Assembly (NCBI RefSeq): GCF_040581405.1
Contig: NZ_CP137157.1
Coordinates: forward strand, 2,664,001 to 2,728,000
Source: Komagataeibacter sucrofermentans DSM 15973
Lineage (GTDB): Bacteria; Pseudomonadota; Alphaproteobacteria; Acetobacterales; Acetobacteraceae
Reading direction: 5' to 3'
DNA: 64,000 nucleotides
Shown here: piece after piece, positions 5,584 through 36,129 of the stretch
How the letters are laid out: each line of letters starts with the position of its first letter
Numbering within the stretch: the first letter of the stretch is position 1
Notes under the pieces: generated by a model
Databases searched by the model: none
Seen by the model: the letters and a program-made list of their open reading frames with translations, nothing else
Told to the model about the DNA's origin: nothing
Program-made: the position numbers and the translations under genes

Positions 5584-5620
5584 AAAGTGGGAGGGCTTCT
5601 GTTGCCCGGTGCCCTCCCGA
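5584..5620 (-). terminator. Rho-independent terminator of ssrA
   Basis: On the minus strand GGGAGGGC and GCCCTCCC form an eight-pair stem around a short loop. It is followed by ACTTTTTC. It lies directly after the tmRNA coding piece and may also form its 3' end. Confidence 0.75.
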
Positions 5621-5840
5621 ACCGCGCTTATCGCTTATGCAGCGACAGCGAGCACCTCTGAGTTATCGTTGGCACTTGTGATTTAGCCCGATAACGGTGG
5701 TACAATGCCGGGCAAAAGGCGGGTCTTTACCATGCGTGTCGAGCCTGTTTCGTCCCCATATCCCCCGCTTTGGGGGGAAACTGGTGGAGACGCCGGGTAC
5801 CGCCCCCGGGTCCACAACACTTATTCCACGCGCCGTTTAT
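5585..5840 (-). ncRNA. ssrA: Transfer-messenger RNA, circularly permuted two-piece form
   Basis: tmRNA rescues stalled ribosomes and adds a degradation tag. On the minus strand the acceptor piece comes first, ending in CCA at 5782. A T-arm CCGGG-GGCGGTA-CCCGG and the acceptor strand CGTCTCC are visible. After a short intervening hairpin the coding piece begins at 5757 with GGGGACGAAACAGG. GGGGACG pairs with CGTCTCC over all seven positions, including one G-U. The tag frame (5673-5635) reads ANDNSEVLAVAA then TAA. The 5' limit of the acceptor piece (about 5840) is approximate. A terminator hairpin closes the gene. Confidence 0.93.
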
Positions 5841-6025
5841 CGCCATAGCCAAGGGGCAAGCCCCTCCTGCACTTTCCAACATAGGTGTTCACCGTGCATC
5901 TGGCAAGAGGAGGATGCACGCCGCAACGGCCAAAACGGCTGGCCCCCGCCCGGCCCATACGCCATGATGCCGCCGCGATGACGGCATAGGAAAACGCCCC
6001 TAGGACAGGCCTGCAAGGATATGGT

Positions 6026-15196: not shown

Positions 15197-16444
15197 TCAG
15201 GCGGCATCGGTCAGCCTGCTGCCAGTGTGGGTCAGTTCCCCGATCAGCCGGTGATAGCCCGCCATGTAGTCCTGCATGGCCAGCGTTTTTACGGCATGGG
15301 CGCGGACATTGGTCCGCAGTCTCGCTGCCAGCCCTTCATCTTCCAGCAGTTCCACCACGCCCCCGGCAATGCGCCGTGGCGCAAGGAAGGGCACAAGCCG
15401 CGCGGTGCGGCCATCTTGCAGGAATTCTTCCACCGGCGCGGTCCGGCTACCCACAATCGCACAACCACAGGCCATGGCCTCACGCAGCGACCATGACGCT
15501 ACGAACGGGTATGTCAGATAGACATGCGCGTCCGAACGCTGCAGCAGGCGGCGGAAATCATCATATTCTATCTGCCCCGCAAAATGTACGCGCCGCATGT
15601 CCAGCACGCCGCCAAGCTCGGCCAGCATGTGCTGCCGCCATGTCTGCCCGCCCGGCGCGGGGCTGCCATAGCTGACTCCATCGCCACCTGCCAGCACCAC
15701 CCGCACATCAGGCCGCGCCCGCAAAATATGGGGCAGCGCGCGCATGAACACATGAAACCCGCGATAAGGCTCGAGGTCACGCGCGACATAGGTGACCAGC
15801 TTCTCATCAGGCCTCACGGTCAGGCTGCCCAGCGTAAAGGGGCACAGGCGGGCCTGTGGGTCCGGGGCGCATTTATGCAGGTCCACCCCTTCGGGCAGTA
15901 CGGTCAGGCGTGGGCGCGCCCAGTCGGGATAGGTCGCGTGCTGGAAGCGCGTGGGCGTATGCCCCCACCCCGGCTGGGCAAGAGCCAGCAGGTTGAGCGT
16001 ATTGCGCGCGCGGATCAGGGGGGCCACATCGGCGGGCGGGGCAAATTCAGGATCAAACCCCACATCCAGCCCGGTGGGATGATAGAAGAATTCATAATAG
16101 CCCAGCAGCGGCACACCGGGATACACATCGGGCAGGTCCAGCATCTCGCCCCAGCCATGATGGCCGATGATGATGTCGGGCACATAACCCAGATCCCGCA
16201 AGGTGCGTGCCGCCCGCGCCACTGCCGCCGCGCGCTGCATGGCGCGCGCGAGTTCCGCCACCGGCCCGGGGGCGGCCAGTTCCGGCGCGGGCGGCAGGCG
16301 ATAGGACACCCGGCGCACGCCTGCCATATGGGACGTTCCTGATTCGCTTATGAAAATGATTTCGTTGCCGCCCTGCCCCCGCAGGTTGCGCAGCAGGTGC
16401 AGGAACTGGGCTGGAAAATTCTGGTGCACGAACAGATATTTCAT
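15197..16444 (-). CDS. GT4-family glycosyltransferase, last gene of secretion/glycosylation operon
   Basis: The 415-residue soluble GT-B enzyme begins KYLFVHQNFPAQFLHLLRN, a hallmark start of one GT4 subgroup. The donor-binding C-terminal half has VTYVARDLEPYRGFHVFMRA and SWSLREAMACGCAIVGSRTA, where the family E-x7-E region binds the nucleotide sugar. The start is set by this N-terminal strand; the frame is open a further 71 codons upstream into the preceding gene's 3' end. It lies 31 bp after the Pro/Ala-rich protein gene in a six-gene minus-strand cluster. Sugar and acceptor are unknown. Confidence 0.88.
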   Translation of the reverse strand: MKYLFVHQNFPAQFLHLLRNLRGQGGNEIIFISESGTSHMAGVRRVSYRLPPAPELAAPGPVAELARAMQRAAAVARAARTLRDLGYVPDIIIGHHGWGEMLDLPDVYPGVPLLGYYEFFYHPTGLDVGFDPEFAPPADVAPLIRARNTLNLLALAQPGWGHTPTRFQHATYPDWARPRLTVLPEGVDLHKCAPDPQARLCPFTLGSLTVRPDEKLVTYVARDLEPYRGFHVFMRALPHILRARPDVRVVLAGGDGVSYGSPAPGGQTWRQHMLAELGGVLDMRRVHFAGQIEYDDFRRLLQRSDAHVYLTYPFVASWSLREAMACGCAIVGSRTAPVEEFLQDGRTARLVPFLAPRRIAGGVVELLEDEGLAARLRTNVRAHAVKTLAMQDYMAGYHRLIGELTHTGSRLTDAA

Positions 16445-16475
16445 GCCGTCCTGCCCTCGCGCCCGCTGCCTGCGG

Positions 16476-17642
16476 TCATGAATCGGCCAGTACGCGGGGC
16501 CTGCGGGGCGTTCCACCACCACGGCGGGGCGACCGGGCAGGCGAGGCCGCCGTGGCGCTGCCGGGCTTGCGGTGCCACCAGGGCACGGGCTGGTCCGGGC
16601 GGGCCTGCATCTGCCCTGAGCCCTTCCGCTGCGTCTCTTCAGGCGGTGTATCGTCACGCGCGGTCTGCGCTCCTGCCGCGGGCATTACCCTGCCGGCACG
16701 CGGGGGCGGAACACGCCTGCCCCGCCGGACCCGCCCCACCGGCGGCGCTGGCGCCACCGGCGGGGGCAGCGCCTCGAGCAACTGCGCTTCCACACCGTCA
16801 TCAACCGGTTCTGGCGCGGGAATGACCGGTTCAGCCGCGACCCGGGGCCGCACCACTACACGAAAAGCCTCGAGCGGGGCCTGTGTTGCGGCCATGACTG
16901 GCCCATCTGCCACCGGCCCGCTCCGGCTGCCATCGGTAAAGCTGGCCTCCACCTGGCATTCATGGCCCTGCGCCGCTGCCCCTTTCAGCCGCACGCGCAG
17001 GCCAAGCAAGGGCAGCGCCATGCCCCGGCTGCCACAATATCCGCCCCCATTCACCCACGGCGAGAACCAGTCCTGCCCCAGTATGGCCTGATATTCGAGA
17101 TCACCGGGCGCAATACCCGGGGATGGCTGGATAGCGAACCCCTCAAGCCAGTGCCCGCTGCCACTCTCCCCCATCCATGCCCCAAGTTCTGCCTGCACAT
17201 CGCCCCGGTGCTGGATATGGGCAACCATGCCCCCCGCCGCCGGGGCGGGAGCTGCCTGCGCCACCCGTGCCGGTTGCGCGGCAGGCCGGGCCTCAGCCGG
17301 GCCGCCGAGGCGGACAATCTGCAGGGCGGGCAGTTCACTGGGCGCCTCATGCTCGCGATAGGTGGTGACCAGCACTGCCCCACCACCTGCAGGCACCATG
17401 ACCAGCGCCGCCCCGGCACTCGCCCCGATCCAGCCCTGCGCATCAAACGTGCTGACCCGCACCCCATCCTCCCCCGGCGGCGCACTGACACGCATGCCTG
17501 CCAGCCTGCCAAAGCGCACGGGGGCTGGCAGGGCGGCATGAAACAGGCAGTACAGCCCTGCATCCAGCCGCATGAGCCGTGCCGTGGCCTGCACGGTATC
17601 GGGCTTGGCCTGGGGCACCGGTTCGTTTGCGGTCTGCGTCAT
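16476..17642 (-). CDS. Pro/Ala-rich protein with ChW-like region, secretion/glycosylation operon
   Basis: I do not firmly recognise this 388-residue protein. Residues about 1-130 look like a globular beta-rich domain. Residues about 150-225 contain two stretches (LGAWMGESGSGHWLEGFAI and DWFSPWVNGGGYCGSRGMAL) whose Trp/Gly spacing recalls the ChW (clostridial hydrophobic W) repeat, GW..W..NG..GT.G. The rest is a Pro/Arg/Ala-rich low-complexity tail. There is no signal peptide or RTX repeat. It might be a type I export substrate or a glycosylation scaffold, but nothing proves this. The ATG at 17642 has GGGGGA eight bases upstream. Confidence 0.72.
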   Translation of the reverse strand: MTQTANEPVPQAKPDTVQATARLMRLDAGLYCLFHAALPAPVRFGRLAGMRVSAPPGEDGVRVSTFDAQGWIGASAGAALVMVPAGGGAVLVTTYREHEAPSELPALQIVRLGGPAEARPAAQPARVAQAAPAPAAGGMVAHIQHRGDVQAELGAWMGESGSGHWLEGFAIQPSPGIAPGDLEYQAILGQDWFSPWVNGGGYCGSRGMALPLLGLRVRLKGAAAQGHECQVEASFTDGSRSGPVADGPVMAATQAPLEAFRVVVRPRVAAEPVIPAPEPVDDGVEAQLLEALPPPVAPAPPVGRVRRGRRVPPPRAGRVMPAAGAQTARDDTPPEETQRKGSGQMQARPDQPVPWWHRKPGSATAASPARSPRRGGGTPRRPRVLADS

Positions 17643-17724
17643 GGCTGCTTCCCCCACGGAGAAGAAGACGGCACGGGCGCACAGGCAGGAGCAGGACAGG
17701 TCAAGGCGGGCCTCTTGGGAGTGG

Positions 17725-20670
17725 TCAGGAACACACCGGGCGGCTCACGTCATGCCCGGCCCGTGCATAAGACAGCAAAAACGTATTCAATTGGTGAACG
17801 GGCAGCCCCAGCGGCACGCACGCGCCCCGCCCCGTGGCCCGGATGCGCTGCGCCACGGTGCCGATATCAAACGCCACGGCCCGCAGCCCCGCCCGCCACA
17901 GCAGCGTAAGCGTGAAGCACCATGTCTCGGGCCATAGCGCGGGCAGGAAGCCCACATCGCCCGCGCAGCCCCGCACCAGCGCCAGGCCATCCGCCTCGTC
18001 ATAATGGCCGGTCACGAACACGCGGCCCGTTTCCAGCAGGGCGGCATCATCCACCGTATGGCCCACCACCACGAATTCCAGCGGCAGGTCGCGCGCCCGC
18101 GCATCGCGTGCCGCCGCAAGCACGATGGCATGGCCTTTTTCCACCCCGATTCCCCCCACGATCACCACCCGGCAACGATCATTCCGTGGCGGCAGGCCAG
18201 TCGCGGCAGCGGTGACATCCTGGGCGGCGAAGTGCGGCAGGGACAGCGCAGGGCCATCATCTTCCAGCGCGTGCACATGGGGCGTGACATGCGGAAAATA
18301 CCGGCCCAGCCGCAATGCGACCTCCGCCGAGGGCACGATCACCCGCCGCGCACCGGCAAGGTCACGGGCCGTGTCATGGCGCAGGCGCGTCACGTCGCGC
18401 TCCCCCACCACCGAGCCAAGCACGCCCACGCAGGCCGCGCATCCTGCCGCATCCGGCTCGCCACAATAGCGCCCCGCAGGCCCCACCAATGTTACGCGCG
18501 GGCACAGCCCGGCATAGTCATGCACGTAATAATCACAGGGCAGCGCCAGCACGCGGCACAAAGCCCGCGCACGCGCATCGTGCCCCAGTTGATGATGGAT
18601 CTCGACCTGCGCCACGCCCAGCGCGCGCAGCAGCGCCACAAGGGCCGGTTCCTGCGCGGGCCAGGCAAAATGCAGGTCGGGCCAGTCGGCCTCTGGCCTG
18701 CCATCACGCAGCACGAACCCCTCGGGCGTGGGGTCGAGCACGACAGGCAACCGCCCCGCCTCCAGCCAGTGCCGCCCGCGCGCTTGCACCACGCGGGCCA
18801 CGCCGCCGCCTTCGCCATGGCTGACCAGCAGCACCGCCCCCGCCAGCCCTGCCGCAGCAGCCCCCCGGCACCACACCAGCACCGACAGCCTGTGCCGGGC
18901 CGCCCGCAACGGGTCGGCCTTGATATGGGCCGCCACCAGCGCATCATAACCGGGAAAGAGCCGGTTCAGAATCCAGATATTGCGCCGCAGCAGGTCAGCC
19001 CGTGCGCTGGCAAACGACACGCCCCCCACATGCCCCACGAACGCCCCCACCGCCGCCCGGTGCCGCCAGCCGCCAAGGCGGCCACGCATGCAGAAATCAT
19101 TTTCCTCGCCATAGCCACGGCCAAACAGTTCGGGGCGGAATGCGCCAGTGTGACGCAGGCAGTCATAGCGGATGAACATGCAGAACCCGTGCGTGGTCGG
19201 CACCTCCACATCCCCGCCACCATTGGCGCGGCGGGCCGCGGCCATCAACCACCGCACCGCCGCAAGCCCGCCCACCAGCGGGGCAGGATGGGCGGGGTCG
19301 GGCCATGTCAGGATGGTCGCATCGTTTGAAAGCGGCGAGACGGTGCCCGTATCGGCGCGGGCATAGGCCACGTGCCGCATCTCCTCCAGCCAGCCCGGCG
19401 CCACCAATGTATCGCTGTTGAGCAGCACCACGTCATCGCCCCGCACATCCGCCAGCGCGGTGCAGATCGCAGCCGGATAGCCCCGGTTGCGCGCATGGCG
19501 GCGCAGGTGAATGCGCCCGGTCGCGGCAAGGTCGCCCAGCGCGATGGCAAGGTCAGGGTCCGGCGTGGCGTCGTCCACCACCATGATGTCCGTGACATGA
19601 CGCGTCGGGGCATCAAGGCTGGCCAGCACGCTGTCGATACAGGCGAGCGTGCGGACCCGGTCGGCATAGACGGGAATGACCACCCGGCAGCGTGGGGCAA
19701 CGGGTGGCACGCGCACCGGTGCCGCGCCATGGCCCCGCATGGCGGGAAACACGGGCCGGGCGGCGGGAAGCCCGACGGGTAGCGGCGAGCCGGTGACATC
19801 CCGCCCGTCGGGTCGCACGACCCGCACGCTGCCGCCTGTTGCCAGGGCCTGCCACGGCACATGAAATGTCCAGACCGGCAGGCCGGGACCTGCCGCGCTG
19901 TCGTGTCGGCCCACCCTGCCGCGCCTGAGCGTGAGGCTACGCCTGCCCCCGGCATCAATCAGGTGCAGTTCGGGGCAATGATCGGGCCGGGCGGGCATGA
20001 AGGCCCAGCCCGCAAGGCCATGGTCATCGGGCCACATCGCCCCCAGCGTAGCGCCCAGTGCAACAGGGTCGGGGCGACCGCCCAGCAGCAATGCGCCCGC
20101 ATGGCGCACCCTGATCTCGCGCACATGCCGCCAGTAGGAGGGAAGCGCCGTACTGCCGCCCGGCAGCAGGGCGCGGGGCTGGCCATCAAGCGCCATGTCA
20201 GGCATGTCGCCTGCGGGCAGGCTGCCCCAATGCAGCACCCCATCAGGGGCGAGCGCGCACCAGCCGGGTCGCCCCGTGCGCTGGCATACCAGATCCGCCG
20301 CCCCACGCAGGTCGGGATCGAAACCATAACGGGTAAAAAACCGTTCAAGCGCCGCCGCCGCGCGGGTCCATGCCCCGGCCCCGCACAGGGCCAGCACCAG
20401 CAGTTTCAGCCCCGTGCGGAATTCCTGCGCCGCCATGACCTGCTCAACCGCGCGCGCGGCCTGTGCCGCCTGCCCCGCGCCCAGCAGCACCGCTGCCTGC
20501 GCGAAGCGAACCGCCCTGTCACCCGAGGCCATGCGCCCCGCACGCGCCATCCACGCAACGGCCTGCCCGTGCCGCCCATCCGCCGCATGCCGCCATGCCT
20601 GCCGCATGGCGCCGCTGACCTCCACCTCCGGCACGTTGTCAGGTGTTGTGTGGGGCGGTCGCCTGCTCAT
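17725..20670 (-). CDS. Large bifunctional glycosyltransferase (helical N-terminus + GT2 + GT4)
   Basis: The 981-residue protein has three parts. Residues 1-120 are an Ala-rich helical, TPR-like region. A GT-A/GT2 domain starts near residue 328 with CRVVIPVYADRVRTLACIDS, MVVDDATPDPD and VLLNSDTLVAPGW, and ends in YGEENDFCMRG. A GT-B/GT4-like domain covers about 640-981, with DYYVHDYAGLCPRVTLVG, a Cys-rich segment and VVIVGGIGVEKGHAIVLAA near 835. The start overlaps the Sel1 gene stop by four bases (ATGA). Two transferase activities on one chain suggest stepwise assembly of a disaccharide or glycan on one acceptor. Confidence 0.88.
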   Translation of the reverse strand: MSRRPPHTTPDNVPEVEVSGAMRQAWRHAADGRHGQAVAWMARAGRMASGDRAVRFAQAAVLLGAGQAAQAARAVEQVMAAQEFRTGLKLLVLALCGAGAWTRAAAALERFFTRYGFDPDLRGAADLVCQRTGRPGWCALAPDGVLHWGSLPAGDMPDMALDGQPRALLPGGSTALPSYWRHVREIRVRHAGALLLGGRPDPVALGATLGAMWPDDHGLAGWAFMPARPDHCPELHLIDAGGRRSLTLRRGRVGRHDSAAGPGLPVWTFHVPWQALATGGSVRVVRPDGRDVTGSPLPVGLPAARPVFPAMRGHGAAPVRVPPVAPRCRVVIPVYADRVRTLACIDSVLASLDAPTRHVTDIMVVDDATPDPDLAIALGDLAATGRIHLRRHARNRGYPAAICTALADVRGDDVVLLNSDTLVAPGWLEEMRHVAYARADTGTVSPLSNDATILTWPDPAHPAPLVGGLAAVRWLMAAARRANGGGDVEVPTTHGFCMFIRYDCLRHTGAFRPELFGRGYGEENDFCMRGRLGGWRHRAAVGAFVGHVGGVSFASARADLLRRNIWILNRLFPGYDALVAAHIKADPLRAARHRLSVLVWCRGAAAAGLAGAVLLVSHGEGGGVARVVQARGRHWLEAGRLPVVLDPTPEGFVLRDGRPEADWPDLHFAWPAQEPALVALLRALGVAQVEIHHQLGHDARARALCRVLALPCDYYVHDYAGLCPRVTLVGPAGRYCGEPDAAGCAACVGVLGSVVGERDVTRLRHDTARDLAGARRVIVPSAEVALRLGRYFPHVTPHVHALEDDGPALSLPHFAAQDVTAAATGLPPRNDRCRVVIVGGIGVEKGHAIVLAAARDARARDLPLEFVVVGHTVDDAALLETGRVFVTGHYDEADGLALVRGCAGDVGFLPALWPETWCFTLTLLWRAGLRAVAFDIGTVAQRIRATGRGACVPLGLPVHQLNTFLLSYARAGHDVSRPVCS

Positions 20671-22412
20671 CCGCGCGGCAGTTGCGCGCATTCGGCCCGC
20701 GCTGCATCCAGCCCCTGTGCGCTGGCCTGTTCCAGCCAGTGGCGGGCCTGCACGGGATCTACCGGCCCGGCCAGTCCCCGCGCCAGATAGCGCCCCGCCA
20801 TAAGCTGGGCCAGCGCGTGGCCCGCCACGGCCCCCTGCATGAACCAGTGCAGCGCCTGCGCCCGGTCGGGCGTTATGTCGTGGCCGCCACCATACAGCGC
20901 ACCCAGCGAGAACATCGCCCCAGCCCGGCCAGCGGCGGCGGCCTTGTGATACAGGGCCAGCGCCCCCGCATGGTCGCGCGGGCCGCCGCGCCCCTCCAGC
21001 CGGAGCTGGGCTGCGGCAAGACAGGCCTCGGGCAGGCCATGCGTGGCCGCCTGCTCCAGCCATTGCCGCGCGCGCGCCGGATCAGCCGCCACGCCATCGC
21101 CCTCAAGCAGCATGCGGCCATGCCAGTAAGCGGCATTGACCACGCCCGCGCGGGCCGCGCGTTCCATCCACGCGGCTGCCGCCACGCGGTCCACGGGCCG
21201 CCCCACACCGCCATGCAGGCTGACAGCGAGGTTAAAGGTGGCAACCGGGTCACCCGCCCGTGCCGCCGGTTCAAAATCAACCAGAGCGGGCGTGGTGGCG
21301 GCCGGTTCCTCCGCATGGGCCTGCAAGGTTGCGGCAAGGTCGCTCATGGCCGTTACATCGCCAAGTTCCGCCGCGCGTTCCAGCCACTGGCGGGCCAGTT
21401 CGGGGTCAGCCGCCACGCCGCGCCCCTGCTGGTACAGCACGGCCAGCATGCGGCAGGCCAGCGCATGACCCTGCCCTGCGGCCATGCGGTACCACGCAAC
21501 CGCCTCATGATCGGCGGGAATCGCCGCCTCACCGCGTGCATGCAGGTCGCCAAGCAGCGCAGCGGCCTCGCGGTCGCCACCAAGGGCCGCGCGGCGCAGC
21601 CATGTCTCGGCCATCAGCATATTGCGCGGGCCATCCGCCCGGTCATGCAGCAGCAGCGCGCCATAGCGGGCCTGTGCCGGGCGCACGCCCTGTTCGGCCG
21701 CGCGTTCATACCACAGTGCGGCGCGGGCACCGTCACGCGCCACGCCCCAGCCGCGCTCATGCAACAGGCCCAGCATGTACTGCGCGGTGGGCAGGCCGCT
21801 TTCCGCCGCGCGGTTCAGCGCTGCCACCGCATCGGGGTCGGTGCCCGGTGCCTCGGCTGCCAGATGGGCCACCGCAAGCCCCAGATCACCCTGCGGGCAC
21901 CCCGCTTGTGCCGCGCGCGCGCACCAAAGGCGCGCCGCCTCCGGGTCGCGCACGCTGTCAGGCCCGCAGGCCAGCAGGTAGCCATAGAGCGCCTGCGCAT
22001 CGGGCAGGCCGAGCGTAGCCGCACGCTGTGCCCAGCCGGTTGCGGCAACAGGGTCGGGCCAGCGCTCGATGCCCGCAGGCAGCACCGTGGGCAGCAGGCC
22101 ATCGGCCCCCCTGCCATCGGGCGGGTCGACCAGCAGCATGAGCGCCATGGCAAAACAGGCTTCGGCATGCCCGGCGGTTGCGGCACGGTGCATCCAGCGC
22201 ACGCCCTCGGTCGGACTCCGCGGCACGCCCTGACCTTCCAGATAGGCACGGGCTACCTGGTACTGTGCTGGCACCATGCCATCCTGCGCCAGCCGGCCCA
22301 GCAGGGCGAAACCCTGCGGGGCGCGGCCTTCGTGCTCCAGCCAGCCTATGGCGCGCTGCAGCCGCCCCTGCGCGGAGAACCCCTCCCGCCAGCGGGAAAA
22401 CAGCTTGCGCAT
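20667..22412 (-). CDS. Sel1-repeat (SLR) protein
   Basis: The 581-residue protein is almost entirely Sel1-like helical repeats of about 36 residues. Typical units are ARAYLEGQGVPRSPTEGVRW, LGLLHERGWGVARDGARAAL and LAVLYQQGRGVAADPELARQ. I count roughly a dozen or more. No signal peptide or membrane segment is evident, so it probably acts as a cytoplasmic scaffold. It is wedged between the HlyD adaptor gene (11 bp gap) and the bifunctional glycosyltransferase (4-base overlap), so it likely brings glycosylation and export machinery together. That role is inference. Confidence 0.9.
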   Translation of the reverse strand: MRKLFSRWREGFSAQGRLQRAIGWLEHEGRAPQGFALLGRLAQDGMVPAQYQVARAYLEGQGVPRSPTEGVRWMHRAATAGHAEACFAMALMLLVDPPDGRGADGLLPTVLPAGIERWPDPVAATGWAQRAATLGLPDAQALYGYLLACGPDSVRDPEAARLWCARAAQAGCPQGDLGLAVAHLAAEAPGTDPDAVAALNRAAESGLPTAQYMLGLLHERGWGVARDGARAALWYERAAEQGVRPAQARYGALLLHDRADGPRNMLMAETWLRRAALGGDREAAALLGDLHARGEAAIPADHEAVAWYRMAAGQGHALACRMLAVLYQQGRGVAADPELARQWLERAAELGDVTAMSDLAATLQAHAEEPAATTPALVDFEPAARAGDPVATFNLAVSLHGGVGRPVDRVAAAAWMERAARAGVVNAAYWHGRMLLEGDGVAADPARARQWLEQAATHGLPEACLAAAQLRLEGRGGPRDHAGALALYHKAAAAGRAGAMFSLGALYGGGHDITPDRAQALHWFMQGAVAGHALAQLMAGRYLARGLAGPVDPVQARHWLEQASAQGLDAARAECAQLPRG

Positions 22413-22423
22413 ACCGCCCCCGC

Positions 22424-23878
22424 TCAGGGTTCGCGCATGCCGTCGGTCACGGCAGGCAGCAGGCGGTTGAGCAGGTACTGCATCATGGTGCGCCGCCCGA
22501 TATGAATATCGGCCTCGACCGGCATGCCGGGCTGCGGGTGGAAAAAAGGCGGCACGCCATGCAGGGTGTAACGGTCGATGGAAAGGCGCACGCGGTAGAA
22601 GGCGTTCATCGGGTCGCCGTCTTCCTCGCCCGTCTGCGCGCCGCTGCCGCCCGGACGGCCCGAGGCATCGGTAAACGCATCGGGGCTGATGACGCGCACC
22701 GTGGCATCAGCTCCGCCATACTGCGTGTAGGGGAAAGCCGAGAATTTGAGCAGCGCGTGATCGCCCGCGCGCACATAACCCGCATCCACCCCGCGCAGCG
22801 TGGCCTCGACATCAAGCCGGGCTGCAGCGGGCACCAGTGTCATGAGCGGGCTGGCCGCCTGAATGACCGAACCTGCGGAAAGATGGGCGATGCTCAGCAC
22901 CACCGCATCGCGGTCTGCGCGCATGATGACAAGGTCGTGGTGCAGCATGGCCTTGCTGTAGCTGCCCTCGGCATCGGCCAGGCGGTGCTGGGCCAGGGCA
23001 AGATCCTGATACACGGTCGCATGCCAGTTGCTGACATAGCCATCACGCTGCGCCACCATGCCGTCGAGACGGGCGCGGGTGCTGTCTGCCTCGTGCCGGG
23101 CGGAAACCTGCGAGCGCACCACCTCCATCAGGCTGTCCTGCGCCGCGAGCGTGGAGAGCCTGCTGCCCACCTGCTCGTGCTGCAGGCGGGTGCGCATGTC
23201 CTGCACGTCACGCGCCACGCGGGCGCGGGCGGCATACATCGCGGCACTGGCCTCATAGCCCTGCAACTCGCTTTTCAGCCCCGCGATCTGGCGGTCGTAA
23301 TTGGCCATCTGGGCCGTGTATTCGGCTTCACGCCGCAAAAAGGCCGCCGCTTCCTGCACGGAAGCCGGGTCGTTGACATCCGCTTTGTAGGACTGGCCCG
23401 CGGCCTCGGCGGTGCGGCGCGCCACTTCGGCGCGATAGGCCATGACCTGGCGGCGCAGGTTGGTCACGTCGGCATCGGTCATGGTGGGATCGAGCCGGGC
23501 GAGCACCTGCCCCTTGCGCACGCTGTCGCCCTCATGCACGTCGATCGAACGGATGATTGCGGTCTCGAGCGGCTGGATGACCATCGTCTCGTCAAACGGA
23601 GTGAGCCTGCCATTGACACTTACCACCCGGTCAAGCGGCAGAAAGGTCATGACCAGCAGCCCCGCCCCCGCAAGGGCCGCGATCAGCCAGACCACATAAC
23701 GCGCCGCATCCGACGGCGGCAGGCTCACCAGCGCAGCACTGGGCGAGTAAAAGGACAGCAGCGCGGGCGGCAGGTCGGTTGGCACATCCGCCGTAGGCGG
23801 CGGCAGCACCGACAGGATCGCGCCCTCCGCAGGGCCGCCCTGTGCATCGGGCGGTGGGATCAGGGCCTGCCCGCTCAT
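22424..23878 (-). CDS. HlyD-family type I secretion membrane-fusion protein
   Basis: The 484-residue periplasmic adaptor has a cytoplasmic Pro-rich N-terminus of about 60 residues, one membrane segment (YVVWLIAALAGAGLLVMTFL, about 61-80), then the split lipoyl motif VIQPLETAIIRSIDVHEGDS and VRKGQVLARLDP. A long coiled-coil hairpin covers about 145-310, and a C-terminal beta-barrel ends in HPQPGMPVEADIHIG. Such proteins bridge the ABC exporter and an outer-membrane TolC-type channel, which is not encoded nearby. The start overlaps the upstream ABC gene by four bases. Confidence 0.94.
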   Translation of the reverse strand: MSGQALIPPPDAQGGPAEGAILSVLPPPTADVPTDLPPALLSFYSPSAALVSLPPSDAARYVVWLIAALAGAGLLVMTFLPLDRVVSVNGRLTPFDETMVIQPLETAIIRSIDVHEGDSVRKGQVLARLDPTMTDADVTNLRRQVMAYRAEVARRTAEAAGQSYKADVNDPASVQEAAAFLRREAEYTAQMANYDRQIAGLKSELQGYEASAAMYAARARVARDVQDMRTRLQHEQVGSRLSTLAAQDSLMEVVRSQVSARHEADSTRARLDGMVAQRDGYVSNWHATVYQDLALAQHRLADAEGSYSKAMLHHDLVIMRADRDAVVLSIAHLSAGSVIQAASPLMTLVPAAARLDVEATLRGVDAGYVRAGDHALLKFSAFPYTQYGGADATVRVISPDAFTDASGRPGGSGAQTGEEDGDPMNAFYRVRLSIDRYTLHGVPPFFHPQPGMPVEADIHIGRRTMMQYLLNRLLPAVTDGMREP

Positions 23879-26118
23879 GCCGCGTCTCCGTGCATGGCGG
23901 CGAGTTCTGCGGCGTTCTCACCGGTTTCGGGCAGGCGGTTCTGCTGCATCCACAGCGTGCGGTAGATGGTGCAGCGCTCCAGCAGTTCGGCATGCGTGCC
24001 GATATCGACAACGCGCCCATGGTCGAGCACGCAGATCTGGTGGCATTCCACCAGCGAAGCCAGCCGGTGCGACACGATCACCATGGTGCGCCCGCGCGCG
24101 AGGTGGCGCAGGTTGGCGTTGACCACCGCCTCGCTCTCGGGGTCGAGCGCGGAGGTGGCTTCATCAAAGATCATGAGCTTGGGGTCGGAGATGACCGCGC
24201 GCGCAATCGCGAGGCGCTGGCGCTGGCCGCCAGAGATGTTGGTGGATCCTTCCTCGATCCAGGTATCGAAGCCCGCGGGCATGCGCTCGATGAATTCCTC
24301 CGCTCCCGCAAGGCGGGCGGCGCGCACCACGTCCTCCAGCGTCAGGCCCGGTCGGCCCGCGATGATGTTGTCGCGGATGGTGCCGCGAAACAGGAAGTTG
24401 TCCTGCAGCACCACCCCGCATGAGCGGCGCAGATAGGTCAGGTTGATCTCGCGCAGGTCTATGCCATCGAGCCGCAGGTGGCCGGTATAGCTGCGGCTTA
24501 CGCCCTGCAGCAGCCGCGTGATGGTGGATTTGCCCGAACCGCTGCGCCCTACCAGCCCCAGCATGGTGCCCGCGGGCACGCTGAAGGTGATGTCATCAAG
24601 CGCGGGCGCGGAAGCGCCGGGATAGGTAAAGCACACATTGGAAAACGACAGCGCCCCGTGCAGCGGCGGGCGCAGGCCGGTGGTGAGCGCGCGGGTCTCG
24701 GTCGGGCGGTTGAGCACGGAACCGGTCTCGGCCAGGGCGGCGCGCACCTCGTTGAAATCATCGATCAGCCGGGCCATGCCCACCAGCGGCGAGGCCACGC
24801 GCCCGCCCAGCATCATGAACGCCATGAGCGCGCCCGCCTCCATGCCCGAACTGGTGGAGGTAATGGCCATATATGCCCCGATGAGGATGATGCCGCGATT
24901 GATGAACAGGTCGAGCGGCATGACCGCCGTGCCCACCCAGTTGCCCATGCGCCCGGCATCGAGCGAGGCGGTGACGACATCGGCGGTCTTTTCATCCCAC
25001 ACTGCGCGGCGCACCGGCTCCAGCGCCAGGGTCTTGACGGTGCGGATTCCGGCTACAGTTTCATACAGTGCGGCGCTGCGGGCCATTTCGGCGCGGACCT
25101 GCCGGTTGATCAGCCGCCCCACTGTAGGCATGGCCAGCAGGATGATGACGCCAATCAGCGCCGCGCCCACAACGGTCATCCATGCCAGCGCGGTGCTGAG
25201 CCAGAACAGGAAGGGCAGCACCACCAGCAGGGTGAACAGGTCGAGGAAGGTGCCCAGCAGCTTGCCGGTCATGAACTGCCTCACCTTGTAGATGGCGCTG
25301 ATGCGGCCGATGATGTTGCCTGCCTGCTCGCGCTCGAAAAACTCCAGCGGCAGGGCCAGCAGCCGGTCGAACACCGCAAGCGAGATGCGCGTATCCAGCC
25401 GCGTGGTGAGCACCAGCGTGATCTCGCGCCGTGCATGGGTAAGCAGGATTTCATAAAACCCCATGACCACGACCAGCCCGGCAAGCGAGACCAGGGTGGC
25501 CATGGAATGGAAGTTCACCACCCGGTCGATCACCTGCATGACGATAAGCGGCGGGAAGATGGCCAGCATGCTGATCACCATGGAGGACAGCACCACATCG
25601 CGCAGCAGCCTGCGCTCGCCCAGCACAAGGCGGCGCAGCCACGCGAAATCGACCGGCGGCTCGGAGCGCGTGCTGTCATGCTGGCCACGCACCAGCAGCA
25701 CATCGCCCGTCCAGACCGCTTCAAGCCGCAGGGCATCGACTGCCACCGGAGACGTGTCGGGGCTGGCGAAGGGATCGGCCAGCCAGATCACGCCACCGGC
25801 TTCATCCGCGCCGACCATGAGCCCCGCCGAACCATCGGCAAACATGAGCACGACCGGCGGCACGTCGCGCAGGCGCACGAGGTCGCGCCATTGCAGGCGC
25901 ATGCCCCGTGCCGTGCCGCCGTTTTCCTCCACCCAGCGCGCCAGGGCGGGAATGGAGGGGGCACGCTCGCCCTCTTCCCCGGCAAAATCGCGTACGTCGA
26001 GGTCAATGCCATGAAAGCGTGCCGCGCGCAGCACGGCCTGCAGGCGGATCAGTTCCGGCGCGCGCCGTGGCGCAGCCTGCCCCCCGACGCCATCACCTGC
26101 TTGGTCTGGATGGCCCAC
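23875..26118 (-). CDS. Type I secretion ABC transporter with degenerate C39-like domain
   Basis: The 747-residue exporter has an N-terminal C39-peptidase-like domain (about 20-150), six membrane helices (about 160-450) and an ATPase domain with GRSGSGKSTI near 525, NISGGQRQRLAIARA and MIFDEATSALD. The C39-like domain lacks the catalytic Cys motif (the equivalent region reads LIRLQAVLRAARFHGI). It therefore resembles the non-cleaving CLD of HlyB-type exporters, which bind unfolded substrates with C-terminal signals. The start is GTG, with AAAGGGG seven bases upstream. It is the first gene of the operon; the 391 bp upstream is the divergent promoter region. Confidence 0.94.
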   Translation of the reverse strand: MGHPDQAGDGVGGQAAPRRAPELIRLQAVLRAARFHGIDLDVRDFAGEEGERAPSIPALARWVEENGGTARGMRLQWRDLVRLRDVPPVVLMFADGSAGLMVGADEAGGVIWLADPFASPDTSPVAVDALRLEAVWTGDVLLVRGQHDSTRSEPPVDFAWLRRLVLGERRLLRDVVLSSMVISMLAIFPPLIVMQVIDRVVNFHSMATLVSLAGLVVVMGFYEILLTHARREITLVLTTRLDTRISLAVFDRLLALPLEFFEREQAGNIIGRISAIYKVRQFMTGKLLGTFLDLFTLLVVLPFLFWLSTALAWMTVVGAALIGVIILLAMPTVGRLINRQVRAEMARSAALYETVAGIRTVKTLALEPVRRAVWDEKTADVVTASLDAGRMGNWVGTAVMPLDLFINRGIILIGAYMAITSTSSGMEAGALMAFMMLGGRVASPLVGMARLIDDFNEVRAALAETGSVLNRPTETRALTTGLRPPLHGALSFSNVCFTYPGASAPALDDITFSVPAGTMLGLVGRSGSGKSTITRLLQGVSRSYTGHLRLDGIDLREINLTYLRRSCGVVLQDNFLFRGTIRDNIIAGRPGLTLEDVVRAARLAGAEEFIERMPAGFDTWIEEGSTNISGGQRQRLAIARAVISDPKLMIFDEATSALDPESEAVVNANLRHLARGRTMVIVSHRLASLVECHQICVLDHGRVVDIGTHAELLERCTIYRTLWMQQNRLPETGENAAELAAMHGDAA

Positions 26119-26509: not shown

Positions 26510-27499
26510 ATGAACCTGAACCCCAATTCCGTTCCGCGCCTTGCCATTGTCATTCCGTGTTACAATGAAACAGAAGTTTTTCCCTTTTGCCTGCGCGAAA
26601 TGGGGGAATACCTGAATGACATGATCCGACGGAACCTGGTGCGGGCGGAAAGTTACATACTGTTCGTGGACGATGGCAGCCGGGATGATACGTGGCAGCA
26701 GATCAGCGCCGCCGCGAAAGAGCACTCCTTTGTCCGTGGGCTCAAGCTGTCATGCAACAAGGGCCACCAGGCGGCGCTGCTGGCGGGGCTGGCCAACGCG
26801 ACGCAGGCTGATGCCATTGTCAGCATTGATGCCGACCTGCAGGATGACATCAACGCCATAGGCAAGATGGTGCAGTCCTATATGGCGGGACATGAAGTCG
26901 TTTATGGCGTGCGGGCCTCCCGCCAGACCGATACGGCTTTCAAACGCACCACGGCGGAACTCTTCTACCGCATGATGACCGTCATGGGGGTGAAGCAGGT
27001 TTTCAATCATGCCGATTTCCGCCTTCTCAGCCAGCGTGCCTGCGCCGCGCTGCTGGAATACCATGAGCGGAACATCTACATCCGTGGCCTCGTGCCCCTG
27101 GTCGGCTTTCCCGCAGAAGAGGTCTATTACGACCGCAAGGAACGCATGGCCGGCGTTTCCAAATACCCTTTACGGAAAATGCTTGCCCTGGCCATGGAAG
27201 GCATCACTTCCATGACGGTCAGCCCCCTCAGGCTGATTACATTTGTGGGCGCGGCAATCGGCGCCATTTCGGTCCTGCTCTTTCTTGGCATCATGGCATA
27301 CTGGGTGCTGAAGGGCTGCGTGTCCGGCTGGGCATTTGTCATTGTCGCGCTTTTCGCCGCGACGGGCATACAGATGCTGTCTTTGGGTATCGTTGGGGAA
27401 TATGTAGGCAAGATATACCTTGAGACAAAGGAACGCCCCCGCTACCATATAGAAGAAAAAGAAGGGTTCCCTGCAGGCAATCCTTCCGTGCCTGCATGA
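26510..27499 (+). CDS. GtrB/DPM1-like polyprenyl-phosphate glycosyltransferase (GT2)
   Basis: The 329-residue enzyme has a cytoplasmic GT-A domain with LAIVIPCYNETEVFPF, ILFVDDGSRDDTW and SIDADLQDD (metal-binding Asp at about 104-109), then two C-terminal membrane segments at about 238-300. This is the layout of GtrB, which transfers glucose from UDP-glucose to undecaprenyl phosphate on the inner face of the membrane. The lipid-linked sugar would supply the GT-C/GtrII-type proteins farther along this region. No Shine-Dalgarno is visible before the ATG, and upstream sequence is AT-rich. Confidence 0.88.
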   Translation: MNLNPNSVPRLAIVIPCYNETEVFPFCLREMGEYLNDMIRRNLVRAESYILFVDDGSRDDTWQQISAAAKEHSFVRGLKLSCNKGHQAALLAGLANATQADAIVSIDADLQDDINAIGKMVQSYMAGHEVVYGVRASRQTDTAFKRTTAELFYRMMTVMGVKQVFNHADFRLLSQRACAALLEYHERNIYIRGLVPLVGFPAEEVYYDRKERMAGVSKYPLRKMLALAMEGITSMTVSPLRLITFVGAAIGAISVLLFLGIMAYWVLKGCVSGWAFVIVALFAATGIQMLSLGIVGEYVGKIYLETKERPRYHIEEKEGFPAGNPSVPA

Positions 27500-27976
27500 C
27501 ACGGCACCCGTTCAGAACCCGGTAAAACCAGAAACAGACCCGGCCAGCGCCTTCCCTTCGTGCCGAGTTGACTGGAAGCTGGCGCCAATGGACCTGCTTT
27601 ATGGGTTGGGCCATCTGGCCTGATAATCAGGACATAAACGGCCAGATAACGCTGGCTGTTGCCGCCCCCCAAGCAGGCCGCGGGCATAAGGGCTTGACTG
27701 CACTGATTATGTCCGGGTTTGTTTGCGGTTGATGAAGGCAGCCTTCTCTTTTAAATTAAGGCCGGTGTTCCAGCGCCCGGCCGGAAGATAAGGACTTTGA
27801 CACCTGACCGTGTTAACAAGAGAGCAGAACGGATGCTTTGCTGAATGATTCGATTGAATCACATCTTAGGGGTTGCGAATCGTGCGTTGATATGGCACGC
27901 GCCACGATCCACATCACCAAAGGAAAGGGTGAGCCCATAGCAGATGCCGGTCCTCAAATTTCCAAGGGGGGTTCTT
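27500..27976. other. Intergenic region without recognised gene
   Basis: This 477-bp stretch has moderate GC content and no credible reading frame. It contains a short GATTC/GAATC palindrome near 27857-27870 and repeated TATGTCC words. It may hold decayed mobile DNA, but I cannot identify any, and the galE promoter should lie at its right end. Confidence 0.4.
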
Positions 27977-28075
27977 ATGCATGAACATGCGCATCAGGCT
28001 ACCCATGAGGGAGAGGCATGGCTGCTAAAAACTTTATGTGATTGTATCGCATTCATCAAGAAAGTATATAACTGA
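27977..28075 (+). CDS. Possible 32-codon leader ORF before galE
   Basis: An ATG with a very strong AAGGGGGG site five bases upstream opens a 32-codon frame (MHEHAHQATHEGEAWLLKTL...). It ends in TGA at 28073-28075, one base before the galE ATG. The peptide is His-rich at its start. galE itself has only a weak ribosome-binding site inside this frame, so its translation may depend on coupling to the leader. Whether the peptide is made is not shown. Confidence 0.45.
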   Translation: MHEHAHQATHEGEAWLLKTLCDCIAFIKKVYN

Positions 28076-28076
28076 A

Positions 28077-29120
28077 ATGAAATGTCTTGTTACAGGTGGC
28101 GCGGGTTATGTAGGTAGCCATGTTATCATCAGCCTACTGGACGCAGGACATGAGGTTGTTATCCTTGACAATCTGAGCACGGGGCATCTGGCTGCGGTGC
28201 CTCCGGGCGTACGCTTCTGGAATATTGATCTCGCGGATGCACGGGCAACGCGGCATGCTGTCAGCCAGGAAGATTGGGATGTGGTGTTTCATTTCGCCGC
28301 CCTTTCCTCTGTCAGTGAATCAGTTGAGCGCCCCTTTTATTATCTGGGCCAGAATACGATCAATTCCCTCAATCTGATCGAAGCCTGCACGGATCACGGC
28401 GTCAAACGCTTTGTGTTTTCCTCGACTGCGGCTCTGTTCAATGGGGAAAATCATTGCGAATCAATCGCGGATAATGCCGTAATCGACCCCAGTTCACCTT
28501 ATGGCGACAGCAAATATTTCATTGAACGCGCGCTGATCTGGGCAGACCGTATCTGCGGCATGCGCAGCGCATGCCTGCGGTATTTCAATGCTGCGGGCGC
28601 TGACCCGCTCGGCCGCCTGGGTGAAGACCACCGGCCGGAAACACATCTCATTCCCCTCACCATTGATGCCGCCCTTGGCCTGCGCCCCATGCTCAAGATA
28701 TTCGGCAACGATTATCATACGCCTGATGGAACCTGTGTCCGGGATTATGTGCATGTGACGGATCTGGCCGATGCCCATATCCGGGTTATCGATCAACTGG
28801 AACATGCTTCCGTCACTTACAATCTTGGTAACGGCAGGGGGTTCAGCAATCTGGAGATCCTCCAGAGCGTGGAACGGGTCAGTGGCCGGAAGGTACCGTG
28901 GGAATGGGCAGACCGCCGCCCGGGTGATCCCGCCATCCTGGTCGCGGATTCTTCCCATATCCGTCAGGACACTGGCTGGAACCCGCAATATCACGACATT
29001 GACAGCATTGTAGAAACGGCCCTGCGCTGGCGCGAACGCCACCCACATGGGTATGATAGCGAACCACTATCGGGCAATGAAAACGTCATGCTCATGAAGC
29101 ACGGTGTTGGTACATACTAA
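28077..29120 (+). CDS. galE: UDP-glucose 4-epimerase (GalE/ExoB type)
   Basis: The enzyme interconverts UDP-glucose and UDP-galactose for surface polysaccharides. The 347-residue extended SDR has the NAD-binding VTGGAGYVGSHVIISLLDAG at its start, FSSTAALFN at about 124-132 and the catalytic YGDSK at about 149-153. TPDGTCVRDYVHVTDLADAH and NLGNGRGFSNLEI are typical of GalE. The start MKCLVTGGAG is fixed by the Rossmann strand. It sits in a region of glycosyltransferases rather than with galactose-catabolic genes, so an anabolic role is likely. Confidence 0.93.
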   Translation: MKCLVTGGAGYVGSHVIISLLDAGHEVVILDNLSTGHLAAVPPGVRFWNIDLADARATRHAVSQEDWDVVFHFAALSSVSESVERPFYYLGQNTINSLNLIEACTDHGVKRFVFSSTAALFNGENHCESIADNAVIDPSSPYGDSKYFIERALIWADRICGMRSACLRYFNAAGADPLGRLGEDHRPETHLIPLTIDAALGLRPMLKIFGNDYHTPDGTCVRDYVHVTDLADAHIRVIDQLEHASVTYNLGNGRGFSNLEILQSVERVSGRKVPWEWADRRPGDPAILVADSSHIRQDTGWNPQYHDIDSIVETALRWRERHPHGYDSEPLSGNENVMLMKHGVGTY

Positions 29121-29264
29121 AAACAAAACTCATTGCCGTTTTTAGAAATACATAAAAACAGAATACAATACTGAAGCCAGCATAGCATTAGTGGCGGGCT
29201 ATTCGTGCCAATCCTTCCTAAAGAATTGGCATTATAAGAGCCAGATCATAAAAATAGCCTGATT

Positions 29265-30197
29265 CTAACGCCTTATGTAAGCAAGTCTTTTGTTTTCTTT
29301 GCGGCTCAAAGTAATCATGTCCATGATAAGCCCGCAAACAAACGACAGGCCAGCCAGAATCATCAACCCCGTAGCCAATAAAGTTCGGGGCAATTTGGGC
29401 ACCATATGCGTGTTCATGAACTCTATGGTAACCGGAATGCCAATACTCAGTCCAATGACTGCAAAAATGGCACCAATAACAGAGAAGAAGAAAAGTGGCT
29501 TCTCCATTTTTACAAGATTTATAATAGTCAACAGAATCCGGAATCCATCCTGATAGGTCTTGAGCTTGGAGGATGATCCCTCAGGGCGTTCAACGTATTT
29601 TGTGACGACCTCTCCTATGGGCATAGCCATTTCCAGGGCATGCACCGAGAGGAAGGTTTCGATTTCAAACCCGGAGCACAAAATGGGAAAGGAACGAACA
29701 TAGCGCCGGGAAAAGACACGATAACCGGACAGAAGATCAGAAATACGACGCCCGAAAATCAGTGTGACGCAGCCTGTCAGCATCATGTTGCCCAGCACAT
29801 GGCCTGGCCGGTAAGCATCCCGCTGCTCTGTTACCCGCACGCCATTGACCATATCGAGGTATTTTTCCTGTGCCAGGCTGACCATGCGCGGCGCGGCCGC
29901 GGCCTCGTACGTCGCATCCCCATCGACCAGAACATAGTAATCAGCATCGATGTCGGCAAACATCTGACACACGACGTAGCCCTTGCCCTGCAGGTCCACC
30001 TGCCGGACGCAGGCACCACATTGACGCGCTATCCGGGCCGTCCCGTCAGTTGAATTATTGTCGTAGACGTAAATTTCAGCGTCCGGAATGGACTTCTTAA
30101 AATCTTCGATCACCCTCTCGATTGACACTTCCTCATTATAACAGGGTATCAAGACAGCTATACGAGATGACAAGGGAGAAGAAGGATTCAAGTTCAT
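29265..30197 (-). CDS. Membrane-anchored GT2 glycosyltransferase (DPM1/GtrB-like)
   Basis: The 310-residue protein carries AVLIPCYNEEVSIERVIEDF, IYVYDNNSTDGTARIA and YVLVDGDATYEAAA (donor and metal site about 95-105), then two C-terminal membrane segments at about 230-295. The sequence resembles the bacterial dolichol-phosphate-mannose-synthase-like group whose GT-A domain is followed by a two-helix anchor. It would load a sugar onto a polyprenyl phosphate. Its N-terminus (MNLNPSS) echoes that of the GtrB-like protein at 26510 (MNLNPNS), hinting at duplication or gene conversion. It is oriented opposite to the neighbouring surface genes. Confidence 0.87.
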   Translation of the reverse strand: MNLNPSSPLSSRIAVLIPCYNEEVSIERVIEDFKKSIPDAEIYVYDNNSTDGTARIARQCGACVRQVDLQGKGYVVCQMFADIDADYYVLVDGDATYEAAAAPRMVSLAQEKYLDMVNGVRVTEQRDAYRPGHVLGNMMLTGCVTLIFGRRISDLLSGYRVFSRRYVRSFPILCSGFEIETFLSVHALEMAMPIGEVVTKYVERPEGSSSKLKTYQDGFRILLTIINLVKMEKPLFFFSVIGAIFAVIGLSIGIPVTIEFMNTHMVPKLPRTLLATGLMILAGLSFVCGLIMDMITLSRKENKRLAYIRR

Positions 30198-31256
30198 TGT
30201 CTCAATTCTAAGGAATCAGAAGGTTTTTTCAGCACGAGATACCTATTATGAAATATAGGAAAATCAAGGCGTAATTAGGAACATCTTATTCACTCAAATA
30301 TAATTTATTGTTTTGTTTTCATATTGATTTCTTTCTCTCCATCCGCTATGCGGCAAACGCAAAAAGTAGCCTGCTCCTATATATGCTTTCACGAAGCGGG
30401 CAGAGCAATTTTCCGGGTAGTTCTTCCGCTATGGCAACATGTCAGACAAAGTTGCAAGAGCCTGCCCGAAAATGAATTATTTTGTTTCAATCAGTTATGA
30501 TTCTTGGGTTTGTAACGGGATGAAATCATGATGACATGGGCAGAAATCATCCGCGCGGTATCGCCGCGCCAACCTGACATATGCAAAGGACCCGCGTGAT
30601 ACGAAATGAGCCCTGCTCCCGCTCAAATGCTGCGGCGTATCGGCAAGGCCGTTCCCTATATAGTCATGGCCGGGCTGCGGGTGACACCATCACCTCGTCA
30701 TTTTCCGGCCTTCACGACCATGTCAGGATATTTCTGACAGGAGTTACGCTTTCAGTCAGGGGCCTTGACAGGCTATCCGTAAAAAACGCGGAAACGGCAA
30801 CCCATGTGATTTTGCGACGGCAGGAAGGTCAGGAATCATGACCACCCGAAATGGCCAAGAACCCAATGCCCTCATCCTCCAACTTTTCCAGAGACTTGCA
30901 GCTTCGCGCCAGCGTGGCCATTGCAGCGTCTCACATGCTCCGTAAGATCTCGGCACGACGATCTGTATCCGCCCGACGCATAATAGCCACAATGCTCTGC
31001 CACAGTGTGTCTGGCTTTTATACTCTCCGCCATTCCTGCTCGTGTCAAAGCCTCCATCACAGTGTCTATACAAATTAATGCGATGGGTCAGAAATTATTG
31101 TATATCCCACGACCTTTTGATACTATACATTACATATATACTCTCTAACTCATTCAGACTTCTACGCATCAGTAAATAAAAACTAAATAGTCATAAATAA
31201 TAAACAGATAAAATATTTGTTTTTTGCGGTAAGGTTTCAAGGAATTGTCAAAAGGC
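30198..31256. other. Intergenic region with decayed mobile-element DNA
   Basis: This stretch of about 1.06 kb has no intact gene. The outer parts (30200-30560 and 31075-31250) are AT-rich. The middle is GC-richer and contains traces of an IS5-type transposase on the minus strand near 30880-30925 (NGHAGAKLQ, compare the DGGYAGxKL motif). A segment at about 30612-30710 matches, in reverse orientation, sequence at about 37445-37560. Confidence 0.6.
30850..31060 (-). pseudogene. Decayed IS5-type transposase fragment (weak)
   Basis: On the minus strand near 30880-30925 a short segment reads CNGHAGAKLQVSGKVGG. It corresponds to the DGGYAGxKL block of IS5/IS427-group transposases, but surrounding frames are broken and no other block is clear. 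Treat it as a probable relic only. Confidence 0.4.
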
Positions 31257-32897: not shown

Positions 32898-33641
32898 ATA
32901 TCGACACAGGATGAACAGTTCAGCGAACGAGAATATCCGGTAGCGGGCATTTTTCCTGTGGCTCGGGATCAGCACACATCCACGGTTGTGTGAAAGCAGC
33001 AGGTCGCGAAGATGGTATCGGATGATGTCCGGAAAAATGCCAAGATCTGGCAGTTGAGCCGCGAACCTGCCTGACTGACCGTGGAGCGCGGCATCTTCGC
33101 TGCGTAGTTCAGTCAGGGATGTCAGATATAAGATACGCCTTCGTGGATGTTGTTGCTGCAGGCGCCCCTATATGGCCACCTGGCGGCAAAAGCCCAAAGG
33201 CCGGGCCCTGATCCCACTCGGATCCGGATAGTCAGTGCGCCAGCATGGACTGGACTGCTACCTTACAGGCCCACCACAATCGGGAACATTCGATGAGTCG
33301 AGACGGTAATGGTCCTGACAATGCCATGCCGGACGTTTTTGCTCATCCCTCAAGCGCGAACGCATCCAGCGCTGTACCTATAAAACACGCATGGAATCCC
33401 GGCAGGGACATCTGTTTATATCATAATGTTCTACAATTCAGCGAAAAAACGCGTCAGGAACGTGGTACTGTCGCCTATAGCATTCGAAAAGTAGCTGATC
33501 TTGAAGGCTCTAGATATCTAGAGCGCTAAAGATGCCTCACTTATAAAAATCTATAGATATTTTATCAGTTTTTGATTAAAAAGCTTTTTTTCACATTTCG
33601 TGTGATAGAAAAAATAAATGTTTAGGTAAAGGATATATACT
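32898..33641. other. Intergenic region without recognised gene
   Basis: The first 500 bp or so are GC-richer and look like decayed coding or mobile DNA, with only broken short frames. The last 130 bp before the next gene are strongly AT-rich and presumably hold its promoter. No family is recognised. Confidence 0.4.
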
Positions 33642-35063: not shown

Positions 35064-35110
35064 TACATTATACGTTGCGTACGATTGTTTTTCACGATTT
35101 ATAAGTGACG

Positions 35111-35142
35111 AGGGATACCGCCTGCATGAAAGCGGTATCCCT
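35111..35142. terminator. Perfect 11-bp hairpin between convergent genes
   Basis: AGGGATACCGC and GCGGTATCCCT form a perfect 11-pair stem with a 10-base loop. It lies between the convergent GT39-like gene and pssA. No T run follows, so a terminator role is likely but not certain. Confidence 0.5.
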
Positions 35143-35310
35143 CTGACATATCAGCCAAAGGCAGAACCCTGGTTTAATGCATTGGCCTTCAGGTATGCCT
35201 TGCTGAAAATCTCGCTCAGGCCAACAACTGACAGCACATATCAACAACACGGTCTTCAGGCGCACAGCCAGAAATCATACGGTATCTGCTGTTTGCAAGG
35301 CCGCAGCCTT

Positions 35311-36123: not shown

Positions 36124-36129
36124 AACCGC

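Follow-up and report, generated by a model that had tools for sequence, protein, structure and literature searches.

The present work deals with a stretch of 64,000 nucleotides of Komagataeibacter sucrofermentans DSM 15973 (contig NZ_CP137157.1, positions 2,664,001 to 2,728,000), hereafter the window, and with an operon of six minus-strand genes, A to F, running from position 26118 of the window down to 15197. These genes encode, in this order, a type I exporter, its adaptor, a Sel1-repeat protein, a glycosyltransferase fusion, a ChW-like protein and a GT4 glycosyltransferase. Our findings suggest that the operon probably serves to glycosylate and secrete an RTX-like protein encoded elsewhere in the genome.

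A conserved operon joining a type I exporter to glycosyltransferases

Genes A and B, as well as genes C and D, overlap by 4 bases, and the remaining intergenic gaps are of 11 (B/C), 82 (D/E) and 31 bases (E/F). The starts of D, E and F were reset to 20670, 17642 and 16444 from matches in relatives; the mechanical open reading frames (ORFs) began too far upstream. An ABC exporter gene that overlaps the adjacent gene of an HlyD-family adaptor by 4 bases is an arrangement of the HlyB/HlyD kind. The NCBIfam family that best matches A is TIGR01846 (type_I_sec_HlyB), with 525 bits, below its cut-off of 725.55, and among PDB sequences P-glycoproteins came on top, with E. coli HlyB also matching (E-value 4.2e-110). 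All 14 aligned exporters have preserved Walker A (GRSGSGKST), signature (ISGGQRQR in the window copy) and Walker B motifs. In the window exporter, the region of the C39 Cys motif is free of Cys and that of the C39 His is free of His. A set of 113 exporters (94 distinct) from the retrieved loci shows a Cys in the first region in eight cases, at scattered positions none of which is conserved, and a stray His bordering the second region in two. Neither catalytic residue is kept in the family of A, and the domain is degenerate. Degenerate C39-like domains accompany RTX-like, uncleaved substrates.

Table 1. Genes of the operon, with positions in the window.
Gene	Product	Length (residues)	Position	Strand	Matches and remarks
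A	HlyB-type ABC exporter, degenerate C39-like N-terminal domain	747	23875..26118	-	PF00664+PF00005
B	HlyD-type periplasmic adaptor	484	22424..23878	-	TIGR01843 323.5 bits, over cut-off 208.65
C	Sel1-repeat protein	581	20667..22412	-	PF08238, 10 stretches; signal peptide not evident (by eye)
D	Fusion of tetratricopeptide repeats (TPR), beta domain, GT-A (GT2) and GT-B (GT4-like)	981	17725..20670	-	PF00535 and weak GT4 match
E	Two beta domains, second ChW-like; variable basic Pro/Ala-rich tail	388	16476..17642	-	
F	GT4 glycosyltransferase	415	15197..16444	-	PF12000 and PF00534 over cut-off

Only families of the GT2 and GT4 types were matched by D and F in Pfam (E-value <=0.01), and no GT41/HMW1C or heptosyltransferase-type domain was found in them; nor was an acyltransferase found in the operon. 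The ChW-like family PF07538 scores 19.6 bits in the window copy of E, under the cut-off of 22, and is matched at an E-value <=0.01 in 19 of 20 orthologues, the best at 4e-7. Residues 1-275 of E were modelled with AlphaFold2 at a mean pLDDT of 83.

The conservation and domain content of the operon were computed, as were the co-occurrence and the neighbours of the substrate gene in other genera described below. Gene D was found in every one of the 19 genomes of the genus (the window's own included) and in none of 12 genomes of other families, and the order A to F is intact in all 18 same-genus windows, with few irregularities: A is unmatched over its first 126 residues in one (L032), and E (L033) and C (L036) each lie in two pieces in another. 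Of 60 genomes searched in the order (the window's own included), 45 have a match to the exporter at an E-value <=1e-100, among them G079 at just 35% identity. The full order was observed in 23 of 30 exporter windows from other genera; the remaining seven comprise two cut by contig ends (L079, L100), one decayed operon (L106, of G051) and four exporter-adaptor sets without the full operon (L099, L101, L102, L103).

In a further collection of named organisms, a profile of gene E matched 287 relatives, and the best 80 of these were used for locus comparison. All six genes lie on one strand and in the same order in 72 of the 80 loci, and in the other eight the absent genes would fall at or past the end of the locus. 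Komagataeibacter, Acetobacter, Gluconobacter, Gluconacetobacter (including G. diazotrophicus PA1 5), Novacetimonas, Neokomagataea, Saccharibacter, Bombella, Commensalibacter, Ameyamaea and Acidiphilium are the genera named among these best 80, all of them Acetobacteraceae, and a few loci are metagenome bins named just to family, order or phylum. In this set E is closest to its counterparts in Komagataeibacter nataicola (80%) and K. xylinus (77-78%), and the named organisms with the full operon include cellulose producers, vinegar bacteria and associates of bees and plants. Gene E was detected in 197 of the 299 genomes sampled in the order (G346 at just 8.1e-11) and, of 190 genomes of the class, in three, each a member of the same family, which leaves 0 of 187 among other alphaproteobacteria; those of the 187 that are listed singly all belong to other families. 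Since the order is kept across the family, a chance arrangement is ruled out, and together with the absence outside it this suggests that the operon is an old unit, peculiar to its family as sampled.

These results agree with the initial annotation, which had described six genes in one direction joined by 4-base overlaps or short gaps, all of which were found in that order and over that span, and a C39-like domain devoid of Cys, borne out by the window copy and by the lack of a conserved Cys among the 113 exporters. It had also proposed to compare gene order in other Acetobacteraceae, where a lack of conservation would have spoken against its interpretation; the order was kept in the same-genus windows and named loci given above.

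An RTX-like candidate substrate encoded outside the operon

RTX repeats were sought in 18 genomes, and matches were obtained in 13. The window's own genome holds a single protein that matches the repeat family (PF00353); it has 477 residues, and its gene (G000:C1:2569436-2570869) lies beyond the window, at a distance of 93 kb from it and of about 108 kb from the operon. The match scores 29.6 bits against a cut-off of 23 and covers one stretch, residues 368-399. Relatives of this protein in other genera are mostly of 440-500 residues and share the end ATVxGGNTTIxLxDxTxITFVGVTxL; a signal peptide is not evident in the family by eye. Ser and Thr make up on average 22% of 28 full-length members, versus 4-12% in 13 window ORFs, of which one is probably antisense, and such a content would offer many sites for O-glycosylation. 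Cys is absent from the candidate and occurs in just two of the 28 members, and Lys plus Arg reach about 2%. Conservation peaks in the last 37 residues, with 58% pairwise identity versus 26-49% in the other blocks, a difference inflated by the choice of the 28 aligned members by their C-terminus. Such features are typical of proteins exported by type I systems.

Outer-membrane and competing components were sought in the same genome. A TolC of 473 residues (L265), unlinked to the operon, was identified with 251 bits against TIGR01844 (cut-off 225.15), the one over the NCBIfam cut-off among 13 TolC-like matches. Other ABC proteins of this genome match A at 27-43% identity. Six of their loci, with the strongest of 21 matches, were inspected, and none of the ORFs of at least 280 residues beside them is an HlyD homologue. 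The initial annotation had seen no RTX protein, TolC or obvious substrate, which holds for the surroundings of the operon and not for the genome, where both an RTX-like protein and TolC are encoded elsewhere. It had also suggested looking for a large repetitive secreted protein that co-occurs with the six genes; the candidate is repetitive and of the secreted type, and it is mid-sized.

The last ~85 residues of the substrate in 12 members were used to build a profile, A2, with which 78 genomes were searched at an E-value <=1e-3. Exactly one match was obtained in each of the 19 same-genus genomes, and in the 59 others the profile matched 39 of 43 genomes that have an exporter of at least 50% identity and one of 16 that do not (G042, 3.9e-6); the four exporter genomes without it are G032, G035, G053 and G068. 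In the 299 genomes of the order, at an E-value <=1e-5, gene E and A2 occur together in 163, E alone in 34, A2 alone in six and neither in 96. This amounts to A2 in 163 of 197 genomes with E versus 6 of 102 without it, a Fisher odds ratio of 77 that ignores kinship. Counted by hand at the genus level, weak matches included, the corresponding numbers are 40, 8, 3 and 14. Outside the family A2 was matched in 10 of 187 genomes, one of them strongly (G250, 2.7e-15). Nor is A2 merely an RTX signature, as in G036, which lacks the operon, 122 RTX-repeat matches were found and no A2 match.

Contrasts within genera are more telling than total counts. In genus g25, G056 and G086 lack both operon and A2, and all 27 listed genomes bearing E have A2. 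In g21, both are missing from G040 and G048 and present in G352 and G353, with A2 weak there (4e-6 to 6e-6). In g18, the broken operon of G051 is accompanied by short A2 frames of 217, 326 and 311 residues, those of G037 being longer (492, 795 and 557). As a separate observation, G039, G058 and G059 have 13-18 A2 matches each, in open frames of up to 3512 residues, an expansion of the candidate cargo family.

The surroundings of the substrate gene were read in 13 genomes. In seven of these loci (L242, L243, L245, L247, L249, L250 and L251) both direct neighbours of the substrate are large glycosyltransferases, GT4+GT2 and GT4+GT4, and in L253 two such proteins follow downstream of it, as third and fourth ORFs. 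This second locus thus joins glycosyltransferases to the substrate in many genera, and it constitutes the best evidence that the sugars serve the substrate protein and not an unrelated polysaccharide.

Several ORFs near the operon were discarded as substrates or genuine genes by eye. The ORFs of ~1170 residues that adjoin the operon in many other genera have MetH-like N-termini, and those of 720, 407 and 1298 residues in L101 have the appearance of spurious antisense frames due to high GC content.

Proposed mechanism and alternative explanations

We consider it probable that Acetobacteraceae possess a type I secretion system whose RTX-like substrate, in K. sucrofermentans the protein of 477 residues, is glycosylated in the cytoplasm before export. 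We infer export, glycosylation and the respective tasks of C, D, E and F along the following lines. A and B would form the inner-membrane and periplasmic parts of the machine, with TolC supplied from elsewhere. D, which has a TPR at its N-terminus, and F may put sugars on the Ser/Thr-rich body of the nascent or unfolded substrate in the cytoplasm, where the Sel1 protein C would hold the complex together and the ChW-like E could bind the substrate or its growing glycan. The degenerate C39-like domain of A would then receive the unfolded chain, to be exported by A, B and TolC through the conserved C-terminus of the substrate as a putative uncleaved signal, and outside the cell the substrate would fold on calcium into a surface or matrix coat. 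A more detailed version is possible though doubtful: a Sel1-scaffolded, TPR-bearing dual glycosyltransferase and the second GT4 enzyme would densely glycosylate a Ser/Thr-rich beta-roll protein, a ChW-like lectin would act as a checkpoint for the glycan, and the exporter would take only the finished glycoprotein, giving acetic acid bacteria a mucin-like protein coat. The initial annotation had proposed that the operon glycosylates and exports a protein encoded elsewhere; an unlinked candidate does co-occur with the operon and is flanked by glycosyltransferases in more than half of the loci read, its size is not large as had been foreseen, and its modification, its export by A and the link between the two steps that was ascribed to the Sel1 protein are putative.

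Several results weigh against cytoplasmic glycosylation and export of this substrate, in addition to the neglect of kinship in the order-wide counts and the selection of members by C-terminus. No A2 match was found in 129 operon windows with flanks of up to ~10 kb, a redundant set that includes L047 and four windows of exporter paralogues. The 34 E-bearing genomes without A2 include G032, G035, G053 (g14) and G068, and would need a diverged or different substrate; within g14, E occurs without A2 in three genomes and A2 (6.4e-10) without E in G315. The 5% of genomes matched outside the family equals the proportion among genomes of the order without E, so that 5% represents the background of the A2 profile. 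Five of the 13 substrate loci, that of its own genome (L241) together with L244, L246, L248 and L252, lack a glycosyltransferase neighbour, and the GT-A domain of D has chondroitin synthase as its best glycosyltransferase match by sequence, resembling polysaccharide enzymes too.

This last resemblance favours the main rival, according to which the RTX-like protein is indeed the cargo of the exporter, but D, F and the glycosyltransferases beside the substrate gene build a surface polysaccharide that anchors it, as the lipopolysaccharide O-antigen anchors the S-layer protein of Caulobacter. PF12000/GT4 enzymes are common in polysaccharide loci, and galE and a polyprenyl-type GT2 gene lie upstream of the operon. 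However, these two are found upstream in just 2 of the 18 same-genus windows, the six genes include no polymerase, flippase or polysaccharide export gene, and D carries TPR like the protein-modifying OGT, although TPR are general, and we regard an anchoring glycan as rather unlikely. The missing A2 matches beside the operon and in 34 of the 197 genomes with E, in counts that ignore kinship, would also be expected if the true substrate were another unlinked protein or peptide, with the RTX-like family co-occurring as an old trait of the same lineages. We find this improbable in view of the joint absence or decay within g25, g21 and g18, the single A2 protein of its own genome, the six other ABC loci devoid of an adjoining HlyD homologue, and a second exporter copy in G057 that adjoins another RTX-like ORF (PF00353 19.5 bits, under the cut-off). 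Export of E itself, as a secreted lectin of the ChW type, may be considered because an enzymatic or transport role of E is not obvious and clostridial ChW repeats are known from secreted proteins; yet its C-terminal tail is variable and basic by eye, and A2 matched none of 710 operon proteins, E included, at an E-value <=0.1, which makes this option very improbable.

Related systems and neighbouring features

The proposed glycosylation in the cytoplasm followed by RTX-type export has partial parallels. The hemolysin system HlyB/HlyD of E. coli is alike in its exporter, its adaptor, a degenerate C39-like domain without Cys and, with respect to our RTX-like candidate, the conserved C-terminus; it differs in that here the substrate is unlinked, no acyltransferase was found in the operon, four extra genes including two glycosyltransferase enzymes are present, and the exporter falls under the TIGR01846 cut-off. 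In Caulobacter, type I secretion exports RsaA, a calcium-binding surface protein, and neighbouring sugar genes make the anchoring O-antigen. That system resembles ours as an alphaproteobacterial type I system for a calcium-binding surface protein with sugar genes involved, and here the glycosyltransferase genes lie instead inside the exporter operon. Surface proteins with RTX repeats, SwmA of Synechococcus WH8102 and oscillin of Phormidium, are reported to be glycosylated; they are a 130-kDa and a fibril-forming protein, respectively, and in the part of the source available no Sel1 protein, TPR-glycosyltransferase fusion or ChW-like gene is named (PMC3034196). In type 5 secretion, dedicated glycosyltransferases modify adhesins in the cytoplasm before export, as with HMW1A/HMW1C and the autotransporters modified by BAHT, and glycosyltransferase genes dedicated to a secreted protein and cytoplasmic modification, here deduced from the genes, are the points in common (PMC8151025). 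The secretion type differs, and D and F belong to GT2/GT4-type families alone in Pfam.

No description of the operon was found in the PubMed Central library searched, which leaves most subscription journals uncovered, nor any paper there that pairs "type I secretion" with "Komagataeibacter". A study of Asaia tallies Sel1 motifs per genome, and the portion of it at hand does not mention the operon (PMC8156966). A secretion machine paired with glycosyltransferases now has a concrete candidate cargo, in an operon whose gene E occurs in about two thirds of the sampled genomes of the order, and a surface or matrix protein spread over the family becomes testable by one deletion. If the proposal is true, the addition of sugars in the cytoplasm ahead of export, as known from type 5 adhesins, would extend to a type I system with enzymes of its own.

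Some arrangements related to the operon were also observed. RTX-like ORFs in the survey of operon windows adjoin just two exporter paralogues, in L101 and L103. In L101 (1340-8363, contig 25 of G057) a second set of exporter, adaptor and Sel1-like protein shows 67, 56 and 31% identity and adjoins an RTX-like ORF of 355 residues, which would fit a duplication of the system with a neighbouring substrate of its own. A more conventional linkage within this family is seen in L103 (1-3012), where the end of a protein bearing seven RTX-type repeats precedes an exporter of 34% identity. A second GT2+GT4 protein, with 33-41% identity to D, is encoded in L047 (7486-10203, G018, same genus), and no exporter was found in its 20-kb window.

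At its 3' end the operon is converged upon by an inorganic pyrophosphatase gene, and the GT2 gene and galE upstream of it are divergent; these two were rejected as operon members on account of their rarity there in the genus. They stand at the start of a region, 26510-44000, with a GC content of 42-57% versus ~66-73% within the operon. Farther off in the window, ARAGORN called a tmRNA at 5544-5878, with the tag ANDNSEVLAVAA and an asterisk, the mark of the permuted type.

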